Shown piece after piece: positions 1,652 to 31,032 of a stretch of DNA of 33,285 nt; within the stretch, counting starts at the first letter, position 1; the number at the start of each line of letters is the position of its first letter. The position numbers were made by a program, and so were the translations under genes. The DNA comes from Bacteroidota bacterium (GTDB taxonomy: Bacteria > Bacteroidota > Bacteroidia > B-17B0 > Aurantibacillaceae), in contig JAJONO010000052.1 of the NCBI GenBank assembly GCA_021323535.1, positions 1 through 33,285 of the forward strand, read 5' to 3'. Below the pieces are notes generated by a model. It worked only from the letters and a program-made list of their open reading frames with translations. It was not told the origin of the DNA and ran no database searches.

Positions 1652-4600
1652 ATGCTCCAAAAGTCTGTCCTTATTTTTATTTGCCTCTTTCTTGCTTTTG
1701 GTAAGTATAAATCCCAGCCTGCCCAATCTGCAGTAATTGACCGCATCAATACCAAGGACCTGAGCAACACTTTTGTGAGCGCCTTGTTCCAGGATCAGAA
1801 AGGATATTTATGGGTTGGCACCATTGCAGGACTTAACCGTTACAATGGTTATGATTTTACAAAGTTCAGAAGTTTATCAAAAGACACCACCACCTTAAGC
1901 AGCCCTGCCATTTCGTGCATTCAGCAACTCGATGCTGATAAGATCATGATAGGAACGCGCGACGGTTTAAACATTTACAGTTACAGTTCAAACGAATTCG
2001 TTCGTGTAAAATTAAGTCCACTTATAGGAGAAAAAAAGAAGAAAAATAATATTCACAGTATTGCCGCCGGAACAAAAGGTGATAAAGTAATAGGAACCTC
2101 TGATGGAATTCTTCTTTACAACCCTCAGAAAAACACTCTCGAACCAATTGTTTATGGCATGGGTACTTTCCTGGCGGGATGGACCATTCAAAGTCTTTGT
2201 TTTGACCGCCTTGGAAATTTATGGGCCGGCGCAAAAAAAATGGATACCACCGGCAATCTTATATCACGCATTTTTAAATGCAATATCAAAAAAAGAAGCG
2301 CCATAGAAATTACTGTTTTCAATGGTGGATCCGCTGGTCACGTAGGAATATCTGAAGATTATCTGGGTAATATCTGGGTAGCCGTAGAAGATGGTTTAGT
2401 CAATATCAATCCTTCCACACTTGCTCAAACATATTACCAGGCACCCGAAAAATTTTACTCCAATGTTTCTTACACACATACAAAAGACAACATGATATGG
2501 CAATGTTACTGGAGCTTTGGATTAACTTCATTCGACATTGATAAAAAGGAGTTTAAAATCTATAGGAACGATCCCGACAATGAAAAATCACTAATGAGCA
2601 ACAAATGCTGGGCCCTGTTCAAAGATGAAAATGATATTTTGTGGATTGGCTCCGACATTGGCTTGCAGAAACTGACCAGTAGCCGGCCAAACATGGAAAT
2701 CATCAAGAGGAATTATCAGAATCCTAACAATTCTTTTTTAGCGAATCGTATTTCTGCAGTATTGCCAAGCAGCGCGCACAATCATATTTCTTATGCAGGG
2801 ATAGACGGTGAAGGGTTTTCGGTTTACGACCGTCTGAATAAAATTGCAGTGAATTTTGGTCCCAATGCCTATAACAAAAATAACGAGCGTTTCGTTAACG
2901 AATTTCTTGAAGACGATAAAGGTGATGTTTACGTCGCGGGCCAGCATCATTTCCATAAGATCTCCTTTACGGGCCAGACACCCTGGGTACGAAGTTTTTT
3001 GAACCAGCAGGAACATTATTCAAGCTGCATAACCGCTGACCCAATGAACGCGAATGTACTCTGGATCGGCGGCATCGGCGAAATTTATTCCTTTCACAAA
3101 ATCACTCAACAATTCGAATTCATTAAAAAACCGGCTGGTGTCACCGGAGTTATTCAGGAAGTATTTACGTTCAAAAACAGATTGTACTTCACCCATTTCA
3201 ACGGTTTATTCATTTTTAATCCCGGAACTAAAACCTCGGAAGAAATTTCTCTGCCCGATGTTGGAAATATTTCAAACGCTCTTGTGCTTAATGATAGTAC
3301 AGTTTTACTGGCATCGCAGTACATGGGACTTATTAAATTTTTTCCTAAAAGCAAAAGAACTGAAGTTGTTTACAAAAACAGCGACCAGCTTTATCCGGAG
3401 ATCAATGAAATTATCTCTTATAAAAACGCTATATGGCTGGCTACATCTCACGGGCTTGTAAAATGGAACCCTGCTACAAATGAGCACACCGAAATTACTA
3501 CCGATGATGGTTTGCCTTCAGAAACGGTGCACCAGGTAAATGTACTTGAAGGTTATCTTTACATTGCAACACAGGACGGACTCGTTGTTTTTAATCCTGA
3601 TTTTCAGGTGTCGCATTTCAACATACCAAAAATCGAGATCACTAAAATTGTTGGAAGCGGTAATGATTTTTTGCAGGAAAGTATCAGCAATAATTCTGAA
3701 ATAACCCTCGAAGAAAATCAGAACTCTTTCCAGGTAAATTTCACACTGTTTGATTTTAACATGCCTGAAAAGAACCAGTACAAATTCAGGATGAAGCCGC
3801 TTGACAAGGACTGGAAAAGTATTGGTAACAGACACTCGGTATTTTTTAATGATCTTTTACCGGGCACTTACGTTTTTGAACTTATGGGTGCTAACGCCGA
3901 TAATACCTGGTGCGCCGAGCCTTTTAAAATTACTATAAAAATTGTTCCTCCATTCTATAAATCGAACTGGTTTTATTATCTGTGCGTGTCCATTGTCATT
4001 TTTATTTCAGTAGCGTTTGTGTTATTGCGTTTCAGATCTAACCAGAGAATGCAGAAACGTTTGGAAGAAATTATTGACCAACGTACTGCCGAGATCCGTG
4101 AAAAACGCGCCGAATTACTCGACAGCATTTCTTACGCTGAAAGGATCCAGAAAGCCATTTTTGTAGGAGAAGACATTCTTCATGCCAATATTCCCGGGAG
4201 TTTTATCTTGTACAAACCCAAGGATAAGGTCAGCGGCGATTTTTACTGGATAGGCAAATACAAAGATCTTCTCATTGTGTTTGCAGGTGATTGTACCGGT
4301 CACGGTGTGCCCGGCGCCATGCTCAGTATAGTAGGAACCTCGTTGCTGAATAAAATCGTTTTTGAAGAAAACATTTGCCTGCCCGGAGAGATCCTTACAC
4401 GGTTGAATTATCTTTTTTATAATCAATTAAATCTTAAGGAGACAAACATCCGGGATGGCATGGACGCTTCCATTCTTACAATTAATGTTGTAAATCATAC
4501 AGTTTATTTTTCAGGTGCTAAAAACGACGCCTGCTACATGATAAACAACGAAATCACCGATCTCAAAGCAGAGCGTCATTCTATAGGCGAGTACGAAAAA

Positions 4601-4852
4601 ACAGAATTCACCACGCAGACTATTCCTCCAGGAAACGATCGTTATTTTTACTTATTCAGTGATGGAATAAAAGATCAGTTTGGCGGGCCGAAACAAAAGA
4701 AATTATCATCGAAACGCTTTAAACAAATTCTTTTACAGGCCTCGTCGTTACCAATAGAGGACCAGCACAAATTTATTTTCGAATCGATTAGCAGTTGGAA
4801 AGCCGGAATGCCTCAGACAGATGATATGTTAACGATTGGTTTGAAATTCTAG
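1652..4852 (+). CDS. Membrane sensor: Reg_prop beta-propeller, Y_Y_Y domain and SpoIIE-type phosphatase
   Basis: A 1066-residue protein. After an N-terminal signal sequence come Reg_prop-type propeller repeats (GYLWVGTIAGLNRYNG, GNIWVAVEDGLVNI, DILWIGSDIGLQKL and others) to about residue 680. A Y_Y_Y-like immunoglobulin fold follows at about 680-765 (YKFRMKPLDKDW, then LPGTYVFELMGAN), then one membrane helix near 772-793, a charged coiled coil ending SISYAERIQKAI, and a PP2C/SpoIIE phosphatase at about 845-1066. Metal and catalytic motifs are intact: SGDFYW, DCTGHGVPGA, DGMDAS, FSDGIKDQFGG and TDDMLTIG. The input half matches Bacteroidota hybrid two-component sensors, but the output is a Ser/Thr phosphatase instead of a histidine kinase. 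It probably relays an extracytoplasmic signal to a cytoplasmic phosphoprotein such as a STAS antagonist. The partner is not in the window. Confidence 0.9.
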   Translation: MLQKSVLIFICLFLAFGKYKSQPAQSAVIDRINTKDLSNTFVSALFQDQKGYLWVGTIAGLNRYNGYDFTKFRSLSKDTTTLSSPAISCIQQLDADKIMIGTRDGLNIYSYSSNEFVRVKLSPLIGEKKKKNNIHSIAAGTKGDKVIGTSDGILLYNPQKNTLEPIVYGMGTFLAGWTIQSLCFDRLGNLWAGAKKMDTTGNLISRIFKCNIKKRSAIEITVFNGGSAGHVGISEDYLGNIWVAVEDGLVNINPSTLAQTYYQAPEKFYSNVSYTHTKDNMIWQCYWSFGLTSFDIDKKEFKIYRNDPDNEKSLMSNKCWALFKDENDILWIGSDIGLQKLTSSRPNMEIIKRNYQNPNNSFLANRISAVLPSSAHNHISYAGIDGEGFSVYDRLNKIAVNFGPNAYNKNNERFVNEFLEDDKGDVYVAGQHHFHKISFTGQTPWVRSFLNQQEHYSSCITADPMNANVLWIGGIGEIYSFHKITQQFEFIKKPAGVTGVIQEVFTFKNRLYFTHFNGLFIFNPGTKTSEEISLPDVGNISNALVLNDSTVLLASQYMGLIKFFPKSKRTEVVYKNSDQLYPEINEIISYKNAIWLATSHGLVKWNPATNEHTEITTDDGLPSETVHQVNVLEGYLYIATQDGLVVFNPDFQVSHFNIPKIEITKIVGSGNDFLQESISNNSEITLEENQNSFQVNFTLFDFNMPEKNQYKFRMKPLDKDWKSIGNRHSVFFNDLLPGTYVFELMGANADNTWCAEPFKITIKIVPPFYKSNWFYYLCVSIVIFISVAFVLLRFRSNQRMQKRLEEIIDQRTAEIREKRAELLDSISYAERIQKAIFVGEDILHANIPGSFILYKPKDKVSGDFYWIGKYKDLLIVFAGDCTGHGVPGAMLSIVGTSLLNKIVFEENICLPGEILTRLNYLFYNQLNLKETNIRDGMDASILTINVVNHTVYFSGAKNDACYMINNEITDLKAERHSIGEYEKTEFTTQTIPPGNDRYFYLFSDGIKDQFGGPKQKKLSSKRFKQILLQASSLPIEDQHKFIFESISSWKAGMPQTDDMLTIGLKF

Positions 4853-27371: not shown

Positions 27372-29678
27372 TTAAACCCTGATCCCAATTACCAAAACGT
27401 CGTCTACCTGCGATAAATTCCCTTTCCATGTTTCGAAAATCTTATGAAGTTCTGTTCGTTGTTCTTCCATACTTAAATCCTGAATGCTCACTAAGGTTTC
27501 CTTGAATTGTTTATACATGTATTTTCTTCCTTTATCCCCGCCAAACTGATCGGCATAACCATCCGTAAAAAGATAAATAGTGTCGCCTTCCTGCAACTCA
27601 AATAAATTATTGGTAAAAGGTTTCGATTCACTGTCGATCGATGCTGTAAGGGGTTGTTTATCGGCCTTAAGTAAAATCAATTCTTTATTCCTGATAATGT
27701 AAAGCGGATTGTTTGCCCCGGCGTATTCCAATCGCTTTCCGTCAATATCAATGCAACATAAAGCAATGTCCATTCCGTCGCGCAAAGGCGTATCCTCATT
27801 ATTTTTATTAAGCGCCTTCTTCAACTCCGCGTTTACATAATCCAAAGCATAAGCTGCCGAATTTACCTTCAGGTTATTGAGTGTTTGATTCAATAAGGTA
27901 TTACCAATAATACTCATGAATGCACCTGGAACTCCATGTCCTGTACAATCCACTGCGGCAACAACCAACACATTCGTTCCTGCTTTATAATGATAACCAT
28001 TATCAGAAACCAGGTCTTCTTTGATCTCATAATTGGTGAACCAGTAAAAATCTCCACTCACCACATCGCGTGGCTGGAAGAAAATAAATGACTTGGGTGC
28101 GTATTGTTTTATTTTTTCTTTTTCAATAAAAATAGAACGCTGGATACGTTTCGAATATTCGATACTATCGGTAATATCTTTGTTCTTTTCTTCGATCTGT
28201 CTTCTTTGTTCGTTAAGTTCACTTTCCATTTTCAGGCGCTCAGTAATATCCCTCGCGTAGATCACAATGGCCGGCCTTCCCGCAAACGGAGCCACTTTCG
28301 CCGAGCACTCTACCGGAACCAGTTTTCCGCTTTTGGTCTGAAAAGGAATATCGTTGTAAATCATACCGCCTTTTTCCCATACATCGGCCACTATCTCCGA
28401 ACTCTTTTGAAGGTATTCTTTAGGATGAAGATCAAATAAGCTACGTTGCTCTAATTCTTCCCTGCTGTATTCTAACAATTTTGCAGCGCTTGGATTACTC
28501 TGATGGATCTTTCCGTCGACAAGATCAATTACAATCATGGCATCGTTCGCCTGATCGATAATACTTTCGTAATTATTGAGTTGCTTCTGCATTAAGGCGA
28601 TGGTTTCATCAAACTGCGCCTGATCCATTTTTTTTGTACCTGTGTTTTTTTTCTGGTCGGTACTTTCCTGCATAACATCCCGGCTACCCGAAACTTTTCC
28701 GCCAAGCTGATCAACGATAGGGAAAATCAAAGAAGGATTTAAAAATTCGCCGACCTTATCAGGACGTGACGCATATCTTACAACACCATTTATATCTATC
28801 AGGAAAGAAGCAGGCAATGGAATACCTTCATCATACTTTTCAGCAAAATCGTTATCGTATTCTTTTAACTGAACACCATACACCATGGCAGTGCGTTGCC
28901 CTTCATCGGAAAGAACTTTGAAATCAAGCCCGAGTTTTTCAACCATGCCACGATTCACACCAACCGGGTCGGGACCAATGGCCATTACTAAAATATTTTT
29001 CGATTTAAATTTATCGTTATTCTTTTCATACGTGCGAAGCATCATGTGACAACCCGGGCACCAATCGCCCCGAACGAAGATGAGCAGCAAGTGTCTTTTA
29101 CCTTTAAAATCCGAGAGCCTTACCTGATTTCCATCCTGATCGGGTAATTCAAATTCAGTGGCTGCCTGTCCGATCTGCACCTTATAACCGCCTTGCGCGT
29201 GAGCGAGTAATTGCTTTTTATCTTTAAGGATTCCCCATGCAAGAACAGATTGAAATAAGATGAGAGGCGCCGGAAAACTCCAGGCTTTCCAATCATAATC
29301 GCCTAAAAGGTTTCCTGCAAGATAGGCTCCCAGTGTAACAACAAACATCAGCGGCTCATACCATGAATGATTGGTGTAAGAAAAGATCCTAAAGAAAACA
29401 ATTCGCAGAATTGAACCAAAACCGGCGGCGAGACATGAAACAAGAATAAAAGGAATTGACAGGAATGGGAGCTCGATGGCTACCCCGATCAATGCGGCAG
29501 AAGCAAACACAGTAATGAACTGGTACCAACTTGTGTACTTCGAAACTTCTTTAATGGAAGCAAAATACGCAAGTAATGAAAGAATAGCAGCGGCGAGATT
29601 GTAATGCAAGGCGATGCACACAATAGAAGCTAAATTTAAAACAGCTCCAACGGTTGTGCTAACATGAACGTTTTTCAT
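27372..29678 (-). CDS. Membrane redoxin-PAS-SpoIIE phosphatase fusion
   Basis: A 768-residue protein with an unusual domain order. Residues 1-155 hold about five membrane helices. Residues 165-330 are a redoxin (AhpC/TSA- or thioredoxin-like) domain: FELPDQDGNQVRLSDFKGK, RGDWCPGCHMMLRTYEK with Cys207 and Cys210 as a CxxC pair, and PASFLIDINGVVRYA with the expected cis-proline. After a linker, residues 366-485 form a PAS domain (IIDQANDAMIVIDLVDG, ending in IVIYARDITERL). A coiled coil ends EYSKRIQRSIF and a SpoIIE/PP2C phosphatase fills 510-768, with SGDFYW, DCTGHGVPGA, DGMDIA and FTDGYADQFGG; the last TDD motif reads VDD. It may make phosphatase output depend on thiol redox state. The redoxin's side of the membrane is not clear. 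Confidence 0.88.
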   Translation of the reverse strand: MKNVHVSTTVGAVLNLASIVCIALHYNLAAAILSLLAYFASIKEVSKYTSWYQFITVFASAALIGVAIELPFLSIPFILVSCLAAGFGSILRIVFFRIFSYTNHSWYEPLMFVVTLGAYLAGNLLGDYDWKAWSFPAPLILFQSVLAWGILKDKKQLLAHAQGGYKVQIGQAATEFELPDQDGNQVRLSDFKGKRHLLLIFVRGDWCPGCHMMLRTYEKNNDKFKSKNILVMAIGPDPVGVNRGMVEKLGLDFKVLSDEGQRTAMVYGVQLKEYDNDFAEKYDEGIPLPASFLIDINGVVRYASRPDKVGEFLNPSLIFPIVDQLGGKVSGSRDVMQESTDQKKNTGTKKMDQAQFDETIALMQKQLNNYESIIDQANDAMIVIDLVDGKIHQSNPSAAKLLEYSREELEQRSLFDLHPKEYLQKSSEIVADVWEKGGMIYNDIPFQTKSGKLVPVECSAKVAPFAGRPAIVIYARDITERLKMESELNEQRRQIEEKNKDITDSIEYSKRIQRSIFIEKEKIKQYAPKSFIFFQPRDVVSGDFYWFTNYEIKEDLVSDNGYHYKAGTNVLVVAAVDCTGHGVPGAFMSIIGNTLLNQTLNNLKVNSAAYALDYVNAELKKALNKNNEDTPLRDGMDIALCCIDIDGKRLEYAGANNPLYIIRNKELILLKADKQPLTASIDSESKPFTNNLFELQEGDTIYLFTDGYADQFGGDKGRKYMYKQFKETLVSIQDLSMEEQRTELHKIFETWKGNLSQVDDVLVIGIRV

Positions 29679-29871: not shown

Positions 29872-31032
29872 TTAAATTTTAATCCCTATCACCAACACGT
29901 CATCCGTCTGTTCTTCTTCCTGCCTCCAATTATTTAAAGAATACTCGAGGAAGGCTTCCTGTTCGGCCGGGCTCATCTCTGCAGCAATTTTTAAAAGTTC
30001 CCTGAAATTTTTCCGGTTAAATTTTTTATTCTCTCCACCTCCAAACTGATCAATGAATCCATCCGTGAACATATATAAATTATCTCCTGGCCGAAGAATG
30101 ATGACATGTTCTTCGAAGATTTTATCCACGTCGTTATAAAAACCCAATGGGTATCTGCTCGCTTTCAACTCGATAACCTGTTCGTTACGGATAATCATCA
30201 AAGGACGAAAAGCTCCCGCAAAATGCAAACGATTTGTTTTTTTGTTTACACTGATCACAGCGGCATCCATTCCGTCGCTGTTTATTTCGGTGCCGTAAGA
30301 GTTAATACACTTGAATAGCTCCTTATCCAATTCATATAAGATCTTAGAAACCGATTTTGCTTTTTTATTAAGCAGAACTTCCTTGATGATGGAATTCGCA
30401 ACCATACTCATCATAGCGCCCGGCACACCGTGTCCGGTACAATCCACAGCAATGGCGTATTTATTTTCTTCATCCTGGAAGAAAAAATAAAAATCCCCGC
30501 TAACAATATCCTTCGGCCGGTACAACACAAAGCTGCTATTGAAAACCGAACTCACAAACTCCTTCGATTGCAGACTATTTTGCTGAATGCGTTGCGCGTA
30601 AAAAATGCTATCCTTTATTTCCTTATTATGTTGTTGCAAAAGCCGGTTACGTTCCAGCAATTGTTTCTCCTGTAGTTTCTGATCGGTTATATCGTAGCCA
30701 ATACCAATGATCTGATCATCGTCGAGAAAAGAAACATTCCAGCGTATCCATTTTTCACCACCATACGATGTCCTGAACAAGTGCTCAAACGTTTCAGTAG
30801 TATTGTTGCTCTTTCTCATAAGCGCCATAATTTCATTTCGGGTGCGTTCGCCTTCCGGTTTTGAAAAACGCGTCACTTCCCACCAGTTGCTTCCTATGAG
30901 TTGTGAAGGATCATAACCTAAAAGCTGGCAGGCTGATTGGCTTACATATTCGGCATTTCCGCGGCTATTAAGAACAACCACGAGTGCATTTAATTTTTCC
31001 AGGATTTGCTCCTGTATGTCAGAACGTACCAT
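29872..31032 (-). CDS. PAS-SpoIIE phosphatase
   Basis: A 386-residue soluble protein. Residues 10-125 are a PAS domain (LEKLNALVVVLNSRG, ASQLLGYDPSQLIGSNWWEV-type region and IIGIGYDITDQKL). A coiled coil follows with RNRLLQQHNKEIKDS ending FYAQRIQQN. The phosphatase (about 160-386) has SGDFYF, DCTGHGVPGA, DGMDAAV, FTDGFIDQFGG and TDDVLVIGI. Its output domain is clearly related to those of the other two SpoIIE-type proteins in this window. It lies upstream of and in tandem with the redoxin fusion, but a 193-base gap with repeats makes an operon uncertain. Its substrate is probably a phosphorylated STAS-domain protein, by family analogy. Confidence 0.9.
   Translation of the reverse strand: MVRSDIQEQILEKLNALVVVLNSRGNAEYVSQSACQLLGYDPSQLIGSNWWEVTRFSKPEGERTRNEIMALMRKSNNTTETFEHLFRTSYGGEKWIRWNVSFLDDDQIIGIGYDITDQKLQEKQLLERNRLLQQHNKEIKDSIFYAQRIQQNSLQSKEFVSSVFNSSFVLYRPKDIVSGDFYFFFQDEENKYAIAVDCTGHGVPGAMMSMVANSIIKEVLLNKKAKSVSKILYELDKELFKCINSYGTEINSDGMDAAVISVNKKTNRLHFAGAFRPLMIIRNEQVIELKASRYPLGFYNDVDKIFEEHVIILRPGDNLYMFTDGFIDQFGGGENKKFNRKNFRELLKIAAEMSPAEQEAFLEYSLNNWRQEEEQTDDVLVIGIKI

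Follow-up and report, generated by a model that had tools for sequence, protein, structure and literature searches.

A membrane-anchored redoxin linked by fusion or gene adjacency to a SiaA-like SpoIIE phosphatase in uncultured Bacteroidota

In the 33,285-nucleotide stretch of contig JAJONO010000052.1 analyzed here (Bacteroidota bacterium, assembly GCA_021323535.1; hereafter the window), one gene encodes a protein in which a membrane domain, a redoxin domain, a PAS domain and a SpoIIE-type phosphatase follow one another in a single chain (Table 1). Homologs of its membrane–redoxin half are linked to a PAS and/or SpoIIE partner in 64 of 68 readable loci, 16 times by fusion and 48 times by gene adjacency, which we regard as strong evidence of a working partnership between redoxin and phosphatase, one that is real, conserved and probably functional. 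We give about even chances to the fuller reading, drawn from alignments and structure models, in which a thiol-redox input unit anchored in the membrane is coupled, within this protein, to a serine/threonine phosphatase of the SiaA type.

Table 1. Positions, in the window, of the redoxin–phosphatase gene, its parts and its upstream neighbor
Feature	Coordinates	Strand	Basis
Whole gene, membrane–redoxin–PAS–SpoIIE, 768 aa	27372..29678	(-)	ORF, Pfam, AlphaFold
Six-helix membrane domain, residues 6–161	29196..29663	(-)	AlphaFold of the domain alone, pLDDT 90.4, pTM 0.85
Redoxin domain, residues 169–302	28773..29174	(-)	AhpC-TSA Pfam, E 2.6e-28
CPGC pair, Cys207 and Cys210	29049..29060	(-)	CxxC in 74/74 modules
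Pro289, at the presumed cis-proline position of the thioredoxin fold	28812..28814	(-)	Pro in 57/57 rows
Predicted flexible tether between redoxin and PAS, residues 328–351	28626..28697	(-)	pLDDT < 50
PAS domain, residues 366–488	28215..28583	(-)	TIGR00229, E 1.6e-18
Predicted long helix into the phosphatase, residues 479–516	28131..28244	(-)	AlphaFold secondary structure
SpoIIE/PP2C phosphatase, SiaA-like, residues 571–768	27375..27968	(-)	PF07228, E 8.4e-17
Asp577-Cys578 of DCTGHG, predicted metal ligand and adjoining Cys	27945..27950	(-)	DCTGHG in 61/62 partners
Upstream neighbor, 386-aa PAS–SpoIIE protein without redoxin	29872..31032	(-)	Pfam

The domain order that an earlier note had read from this DNA is borne out by the open reading frame, by Pfam and by AlphaFold, and its multi-helix membrane anchor and its CPGC pair at Cys207 and Cys210 were likewise correctly placed. 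The frame starts at an ATG shared by most aligned relatives, and the open frame that precedes it up to the next stop adds only six codons (774 in all). Pfam matches for the redoxin, PAS and SpoIIE domains all lie above the curated cut-offs. An AlphaFold model of the whole protein, built from an alignment of 97 rows, has a mean pLDDT of 89.9 and runs from six long helices (residues 6–161) through the redoxin, a low-confidence segment, a helix at 353–376, the PAS domain and a further long helix to the phosphatase. The same order is repeated in 16 fused relatives, one of which (L033) is cut by a contig end. A chance read-through or false fusion was considered and rejected, as the same frame recurs in these 16 relatives and two genes take its place in 45, and because the second gene of the split form carries a hydrophobic stretch of its own within its first 50 residues in 40 of 40 proteins tested.

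The linkage counts derive from a pattern scan, made with a membrane–redoxin alignment, of contigs from 84,980 species genomes. It returned 71 loci. Bacteroidota groups account for 69 of them; of the other two, L073 belongs to an unassigned bacterial bin and the second is a weak redoxin match in Roseivivax. Setting the Roseivivax match aside leaves 70 loci, of which two (L100 and L101) are cut at a contig end and 68 are readable; every linked locus of the scan comes from the record of a metagenome-assembled genome. At 45 loci, the SpoIIE gene starts between −300 and +400 nt from the end of the redoxin gene, with a PAS domain in all but one (L065). At L088, the contig holds only the end of the redoxin gene, followed by a phosphatase gene; at L073, the PAS downstream of the redoxin is cut by the contig end; and at L089 (3785–6002), the order is reversed, a PAS–SpoIIE gene being followed on the same strand, about 20 nt on, by the membrane–redoxin gene. 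Spacing could be read, with start codons chosen by rule, for 41 of the 46 separate PAS–SpoIIE genes: 20 pairs overlap, 18 are 1–40 nt apart and three are 140–184 nt apart. No third neighbor is conserved at these loci beyond local synteny, the commonest other family being found in 12 loci of one 14-row group. The earlier note had proposed a one-component redox-to-phosphorylation switch; the partnership in that proposal is supported by the linkage, but the one-component form does not hold in general, since 48 of the 64 linked loci use two genes. Membrane–redoxin genes also occur in tandem, three of them preceding one PAS–SpoIIE gene at L042 (5001–7933), while L053 and L073 each have two in succession.

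The redoxin and phosphatase halves were compared by phylogeny. In a tree of 73 redoxin modules (quick method, no bootstrap; L100–L102 left out), the fused or separate state changes at least five times, with two changes forced by well-supported branches, a count that cannot tell fusion from splitting. The fused loci L090 and L095 fall outside the window's well-supported group in both the redoxin and the phosphatase trees, and two separate fusions are therefore the simplest reading. The later of two phosphatase trees comprises 109 domains, three long rows having been left out, and includes 42 domains of the window's genome, the window's own among them. In it, 40 partner phosphatases, again including the window's, cluster together with support 99, and the 41 other phosphatases of that genome in the tree all fall outside this cluster, as do the phosphatases of L090 and L095. 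Taken together, the 62 partners are not one group on the best tree and require seven label changes, one of them forced, against an average of 35.7 in shuffles; the earlier tree, with 44 domains of the window's genome (the window's included) out of 94 matches, required eight, three of them forced. A single origin of the redoxin-linked phosphatases is thus not settled by these trees, and the pattern fits, but does not prove, long co-inheritance with some partner swaps.

The redoxin belongs to the AhpC/TSA-redoxin superfamily by its scores (98.9 bits for PF00578 and 76.9 bits for PF08534) and its thioredoxin-like fold. Foldseek matched it to Bcp1 (3drn) and ResA (4nmu), and in sequence it is closest, among solved chains, to ResA 4nmu and the peroxiredoxin 2ywn. 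Cys207 and Cys210 align inside the WCxxC of ResA, and Pro289 aligns with the Pro of its 'PLPTSFLID' segment, a position that we take to be the cis-proline of the thioredoxin fold. Against 2ywn, Cys210 falls on the Cys, Cys207 on the Thr three residues before it and Pro289 on an Arg, these being the residues that we assume to form the triad of that enzyme. The catalytic triad of peroxiredoxins is described as Thr/Ser, Cys and Arg (PMC8300647). In the redoxin studied here, the Thr and the Arg are replaced, by Cys207 and Pro289 respectively in the alignment with 2ywn, and the peroxidase reading was lowered on this account.

The CxxC count covers 74 modules, among them two cut ones and the Roseivivax module, and Pro occupies the Pro289 position in all 71 modules that cover it; the column counts given as rows draw on a set with 40 of the 55 separate redoxin modules and 40 of the 46 separate PAS–SpoIIE proteins, divergent or cut ones having been dropped. 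Because Cys207 was part of one of the three scan patterns, the cysteines were re-checked on modules collected by profile search, where both are present in 30 of 30. By sequence alignment, the domain has the CxxC and the Pro at the cis-Pro position that mark the ResA/TlpA type, and with ResA (PDB 4nmu and 1st9) it shares the WCxxC-aligned cysteines, this Pro and the overall redoxin fold. ResA is extracytoplasmic and held by one anchor, whereas the present redoxin, which comes after six helices and has a phosphatase linked to it, is predicted to be cytoplasmic and would so depart from the extracytoplasmic placement of the type. As far as the alignments go, it stands closer to the thiol-disulfide oxidoreductases of the ResA type than to a peroxidase; the peroxiredoxin/thioredoxin-like label once given to it stands for the redoxin assignment, and its peroxidase side gives way to the CxxC thiol-disulfide type.

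Placement of the redoxin follows from the predicted topology of the membrane domain. The mean count of Lys plus Arg is 8.9 in the predicted inside loops (45 columns) against 0.7 in the outside loops (24 columns), and the inside value exceeds the outside one in 57 of 57 rows, or in 56 of 57 when the last and longest loop is omitted. With six helices and this positive-inside pattern, both the N and the C end of the domain are predicted to be cytoplasmic. None of 17 fused proteins has a hydrophobic stretch between redoxin and PAS, so the redoxin, unlike ResA, should face the cytoplasm.

What the membrane domain itself does bears on one rival explanation, in which this domain is the actual sensor, of a quinone, an ion or a lipid, the redoxin serves as a relay or a catalytic accessory, and what the phosphatase responds to is a signal from the membrane and not cytoplasmic thiol redox. 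The domain co-occurs with the redoxin, is confidently folded in the AlphaFold model, and over 63 rows retains an invariant R92 together with G65, W106, P136 and D153 at 90% or more. However, its mean column identity is 29%, low beside the near-invariant redoxin active site, and it has no conserved cysteine; we hold this explanation to be unlikely. The window's domain matches no Pfam family, the commonest of the weak Pfam matches over 63 members is PF09527 (10 members, best E 2.2e-4), Foldseek against solved structures gave no match with E ≤ 0.001, and the best VIA-align hit, a designed helical toroid (Z 9.7, rmsd 8.0), is ordinary for helical bundles.

The phosphatase domain belongs to its family by profile, with a PF07228 score of 62.2 bits against a cut-off of 25. 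Its nearest solved relative by phmmer and its top Foldseek match are the same structure, the PP2C domain of SiaA (6k4e; E 8.9e-27 and 1.3e-18, respectively), and in alignment with it the acidic metal-binding motifs GDFYW, DxxGHG, TDG and DD are all kept, D577, G580 and H581 being present in 57 of 57 rows. The SiaA equivalog model NF038263 gives 177.9 bits against a cut-off of 700, with a match limited to residues 485–768, which places the protein near SiaA and not within that equivalog.

Cys578, which adjoins the predicted metal ligand, raises a second rival explanation: the redoxin may be a dedicated reductase or repair enzyme, and not a sensor, that keeps a vulnerable cysteine of its partner reduced, either phosphatase Cys578 or PAS Cys458. 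Reduction of disulfides is common among CxxC redoxins. All 61 partners whose motif is intact have Cys578; among 43 non-partner phosphatases sampled from the window's genome, 30 have it and the other 13 have Ser. The PAS position 458 is Cys in 48 of 57 rows and Ser in nine; over the 63 PAS matches in the loci, the position is Cys in 52, Ser in 10 and Ile in one. The Cys458 counts describe partner PAS domains only, since the searched sequences of the window's own genome gave one PAS match, the window's own. Against this explanation, a Cys equivalent to Cys578 is common without a redoxin partner: with DCTGHG in 30 of 43 non-partners, the residue is not peculiar to redoxin partners, SiaA 6k4e has it in its DCAGHG motif without any redoxin partner, and the relatedness of the rows inflates the contrast between partners and non-partners. 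We consider the dedicated-reductase role improbable, at much the same level as a sensing membrane domain.

Several observations weigh against the proposal of a redox input unit acting on the phosphatase. The whole-protein AlphaFold model has a pTM of 0.53, so that the relative placement of the domains is not confident, and the segment that tethers the redoxin to the PAS domain is predicted to be disordered. One partner phosphatase (L065, 4289–5320) lacks DxxGHG in a pair whose redoxin keeps its CxxC; this protein, which gives no PAS match and retains its place after the redoxin, is likely a dead phosphatase kept in the pair. Five redoxin copies in all are unlinked, four of the 68 readable loci (L067, L075, L084 and L099) and the window genome's own L027; judged by contig names, linked copies occur in the same assemblies as the four (L094, L091, L046 and L043, respectively), and L027 is likewise accompanied by a linked copy in its genome. 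With 94 SpoIIE matches in that genome, some adjacency is expected by chance; on the assumption of some 4,500 genes, this can be put roughly at 2% per gene, as against the 64 of 68 observed. The redoxin tree is a quick one, its program issues a warning that L090/L095 sit on a long branch meeting another, and fused and split forms are poorly resolved inside the window's own clade. Neither a SiaC nor a STAS gene adjoins the window's gene. Finally, when genomes were drawn evenly across the phylum, the module turned up in only one of 395, the window's own, whereas an even draw within the class gave it in 45 of 395 genomes, or 17 of 196 genera, and we therefore regard it as a trait of certain lineages; a search of relatives at E ≤ 1e-15 matched 24 of 60 genomes, the window's included, two of the 24 (G045 and G053) by weak matches to the redoxin part alone.

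Returning to the redox input unit, its coupling to the phosphatase can be considered in light of the segments that join them. Between alignment columns 322 and 366 there are 40–49 residues in 15 window-type fusions and 12 in L090 and L095. The Pfam PAS models fall within residues 369–481, the best being PAS_9 (E 5.3e-11), and the predicted helix that leads into the phosphatase may, by analogy, correspond to the regulatory helix of SpoIIE and RsbP, in which a regulatory-domain helix acts on the PP2C switch helices; SpoIIE is activated by dimerization (PMC5468089). A rigid linear gate appears unlikely because of the disordered tether. Coupling would instead proceed by contact, given that most relatives keep the two halves as separate membrane proteins and that the tether is predicted to be disordered, either through docking or through thiol exchange with Cys458 or Cys578. 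In such a scheme, the redoxin would sit at the cytoplasmic side of the membrane, its CPGC pair would cycle between dithiol and disulfide with the redox state or with a membrane or respiratory signal, the two states would dock differently on the part formed by the PAS domain, the long helix and the PP2C domain and thereby shift the PP2C switch helices, and the phosphatase would then dephosphorylate a SiaC- or STAS-type regulator. Redox gating of the phosphatase, as motivated by the linkage, is plausible. A narrower version, in which the redoxin disulfide is passed to Cys578 beside Asp577 (or to PAS Cys458) and so switches the PP2C off or on, in a system of two proteins in most relatives that was apparently fused more than once, strikes us as distinctly unlikely. 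Least probable is a redoxin that acts as a non-catalytic scaffold with structural or metal cysteines, or as a separate co-expressed antioxidant enzyme: the peroxidase Thr and Arg are indeed replaced and a disordered tether joins the domains, but every module that covers the positions retains the thioredoxin-type set of CxxC and Pro289, and the fusion is found at two or more places of the tree, which plain co-expression would not need.

As to output, P. aeruginosa SiaA dephosphorylates SiaC at T68, in the peptide LLYLNTSSIK (PMC7647112). The window's genome (5.3 Mb) has 94 SpoIIE matches over the cut-off together with four SiaC and two STAS matches, many phosphatases against few known substrate types; in 40 genomes of the genus, SpoIIE matches range from 1 to at least 64. 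At C23, a SpoIIE gene, another open reading frame, a DUF6272 gene and a SiaC gene lie in this order on the same strand, and the SiaC there has a similar stretch, EYFNTSSSK; at C49, two SpoIIE genes have beside them a SiaC gene and a gene containing two DUF6272 stretches. We take DUF6272 to correspond to SiaB. SiaC-type proteins are the most plausible substrates in view of the SiaA-like PP2C domain, the SiaC and DUF6272 genes beside SpoIIE genes and the NTSS-like stretch, a choice that is a guess because the redoxin gene has neither a SiaC nor a STAS gene as its neighbor.

Among known systems, the nearest precedent for the fusion is that of Zhang and Gladyshev, who in 2008 reported from marine metagenomes a fusion of a selenoprotein-family peroxiredoxin (Prx) with a PP2C_SIG phosphatase; the PP2C_SIG group of that study has a conserved extra Cys and is much expanded in the Bacteroidetes bacterium Microscilla marina, with 159 sequences (PMC2398784). 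Cys578 is a candidate counterpart of that extra Cys. As in the present protein, a single chain there combines a domain of the redoxin family with a SpoIIE/PP2C_SIG phosphatase. The 2008 domain is a Prx, whereas the present redoxin has a CxxC with the Prx Thr and Arg replaced, and section 9 of that paper, the text compared, is silent on a membrane domain, a PAS domain and a gene pair. The 2008 report bears on the remark in the earlier note that no described protein with this arrangement was known to it: the idea of a redoxin–SpoIIE fusion is not wholly new. In the literature searched (titles and the starts of abstracts, with most subscription journals outside coverage), no description of the membrane module, the CxxC redoxin or the gene pair turned up, and the words redoxin, thioredoxin and AhpC are absent from the main text of a survey of bacterial PP2C domains published in 2025 (PMC12088040).

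SiaA of the Pseudomonas aeruginosa SiaABCD system is likewise a membrane-anchored PP2C_SIG protein with a DC(A/T)GHG motif, but it has two predicted membrane spans and a HAMP domain in place of the six helices, redoxin and PAS found here (PMC7647112). RsbP of B. subtilis resembles the present protein in a PP2C domain controlled via a regulatory-domain helix (PMC5468089) and, going by a cited title, in a PAS domain placed before the phosphatase. The window's protein has both of these features in addition to its membrane anchor and redoxin. RsbP signals via RsbQ to sigma-B and is not known to have a membrane domain or redoxin. SpoIIE/PP2C phosphatases are signal outputs whose input is mostly unknown, and a conserved redoxin partner names a likely input in one lineage, with the split form of most relatives offering a natural two-protein system. 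The combination points to an uncharacterized bacterial route from redox change to a protein-phosphorylation signal in uncultured Bacteroidota and, if true, would provide an example from bacteria of a serine/threonine phosphatase under the control of a thiol redox protein.

Two further SpoIIE genes accompany the redoxin–phosphatase gene in the window. A homolog of the upstream PAS–SpoIIE neighbor stands at the same place in L033, L038 and L041, and a 1066-aa frame at 1652–4852 (+) ends in a SpoIIE domain (4055–4846), the third in the 33-kb window.

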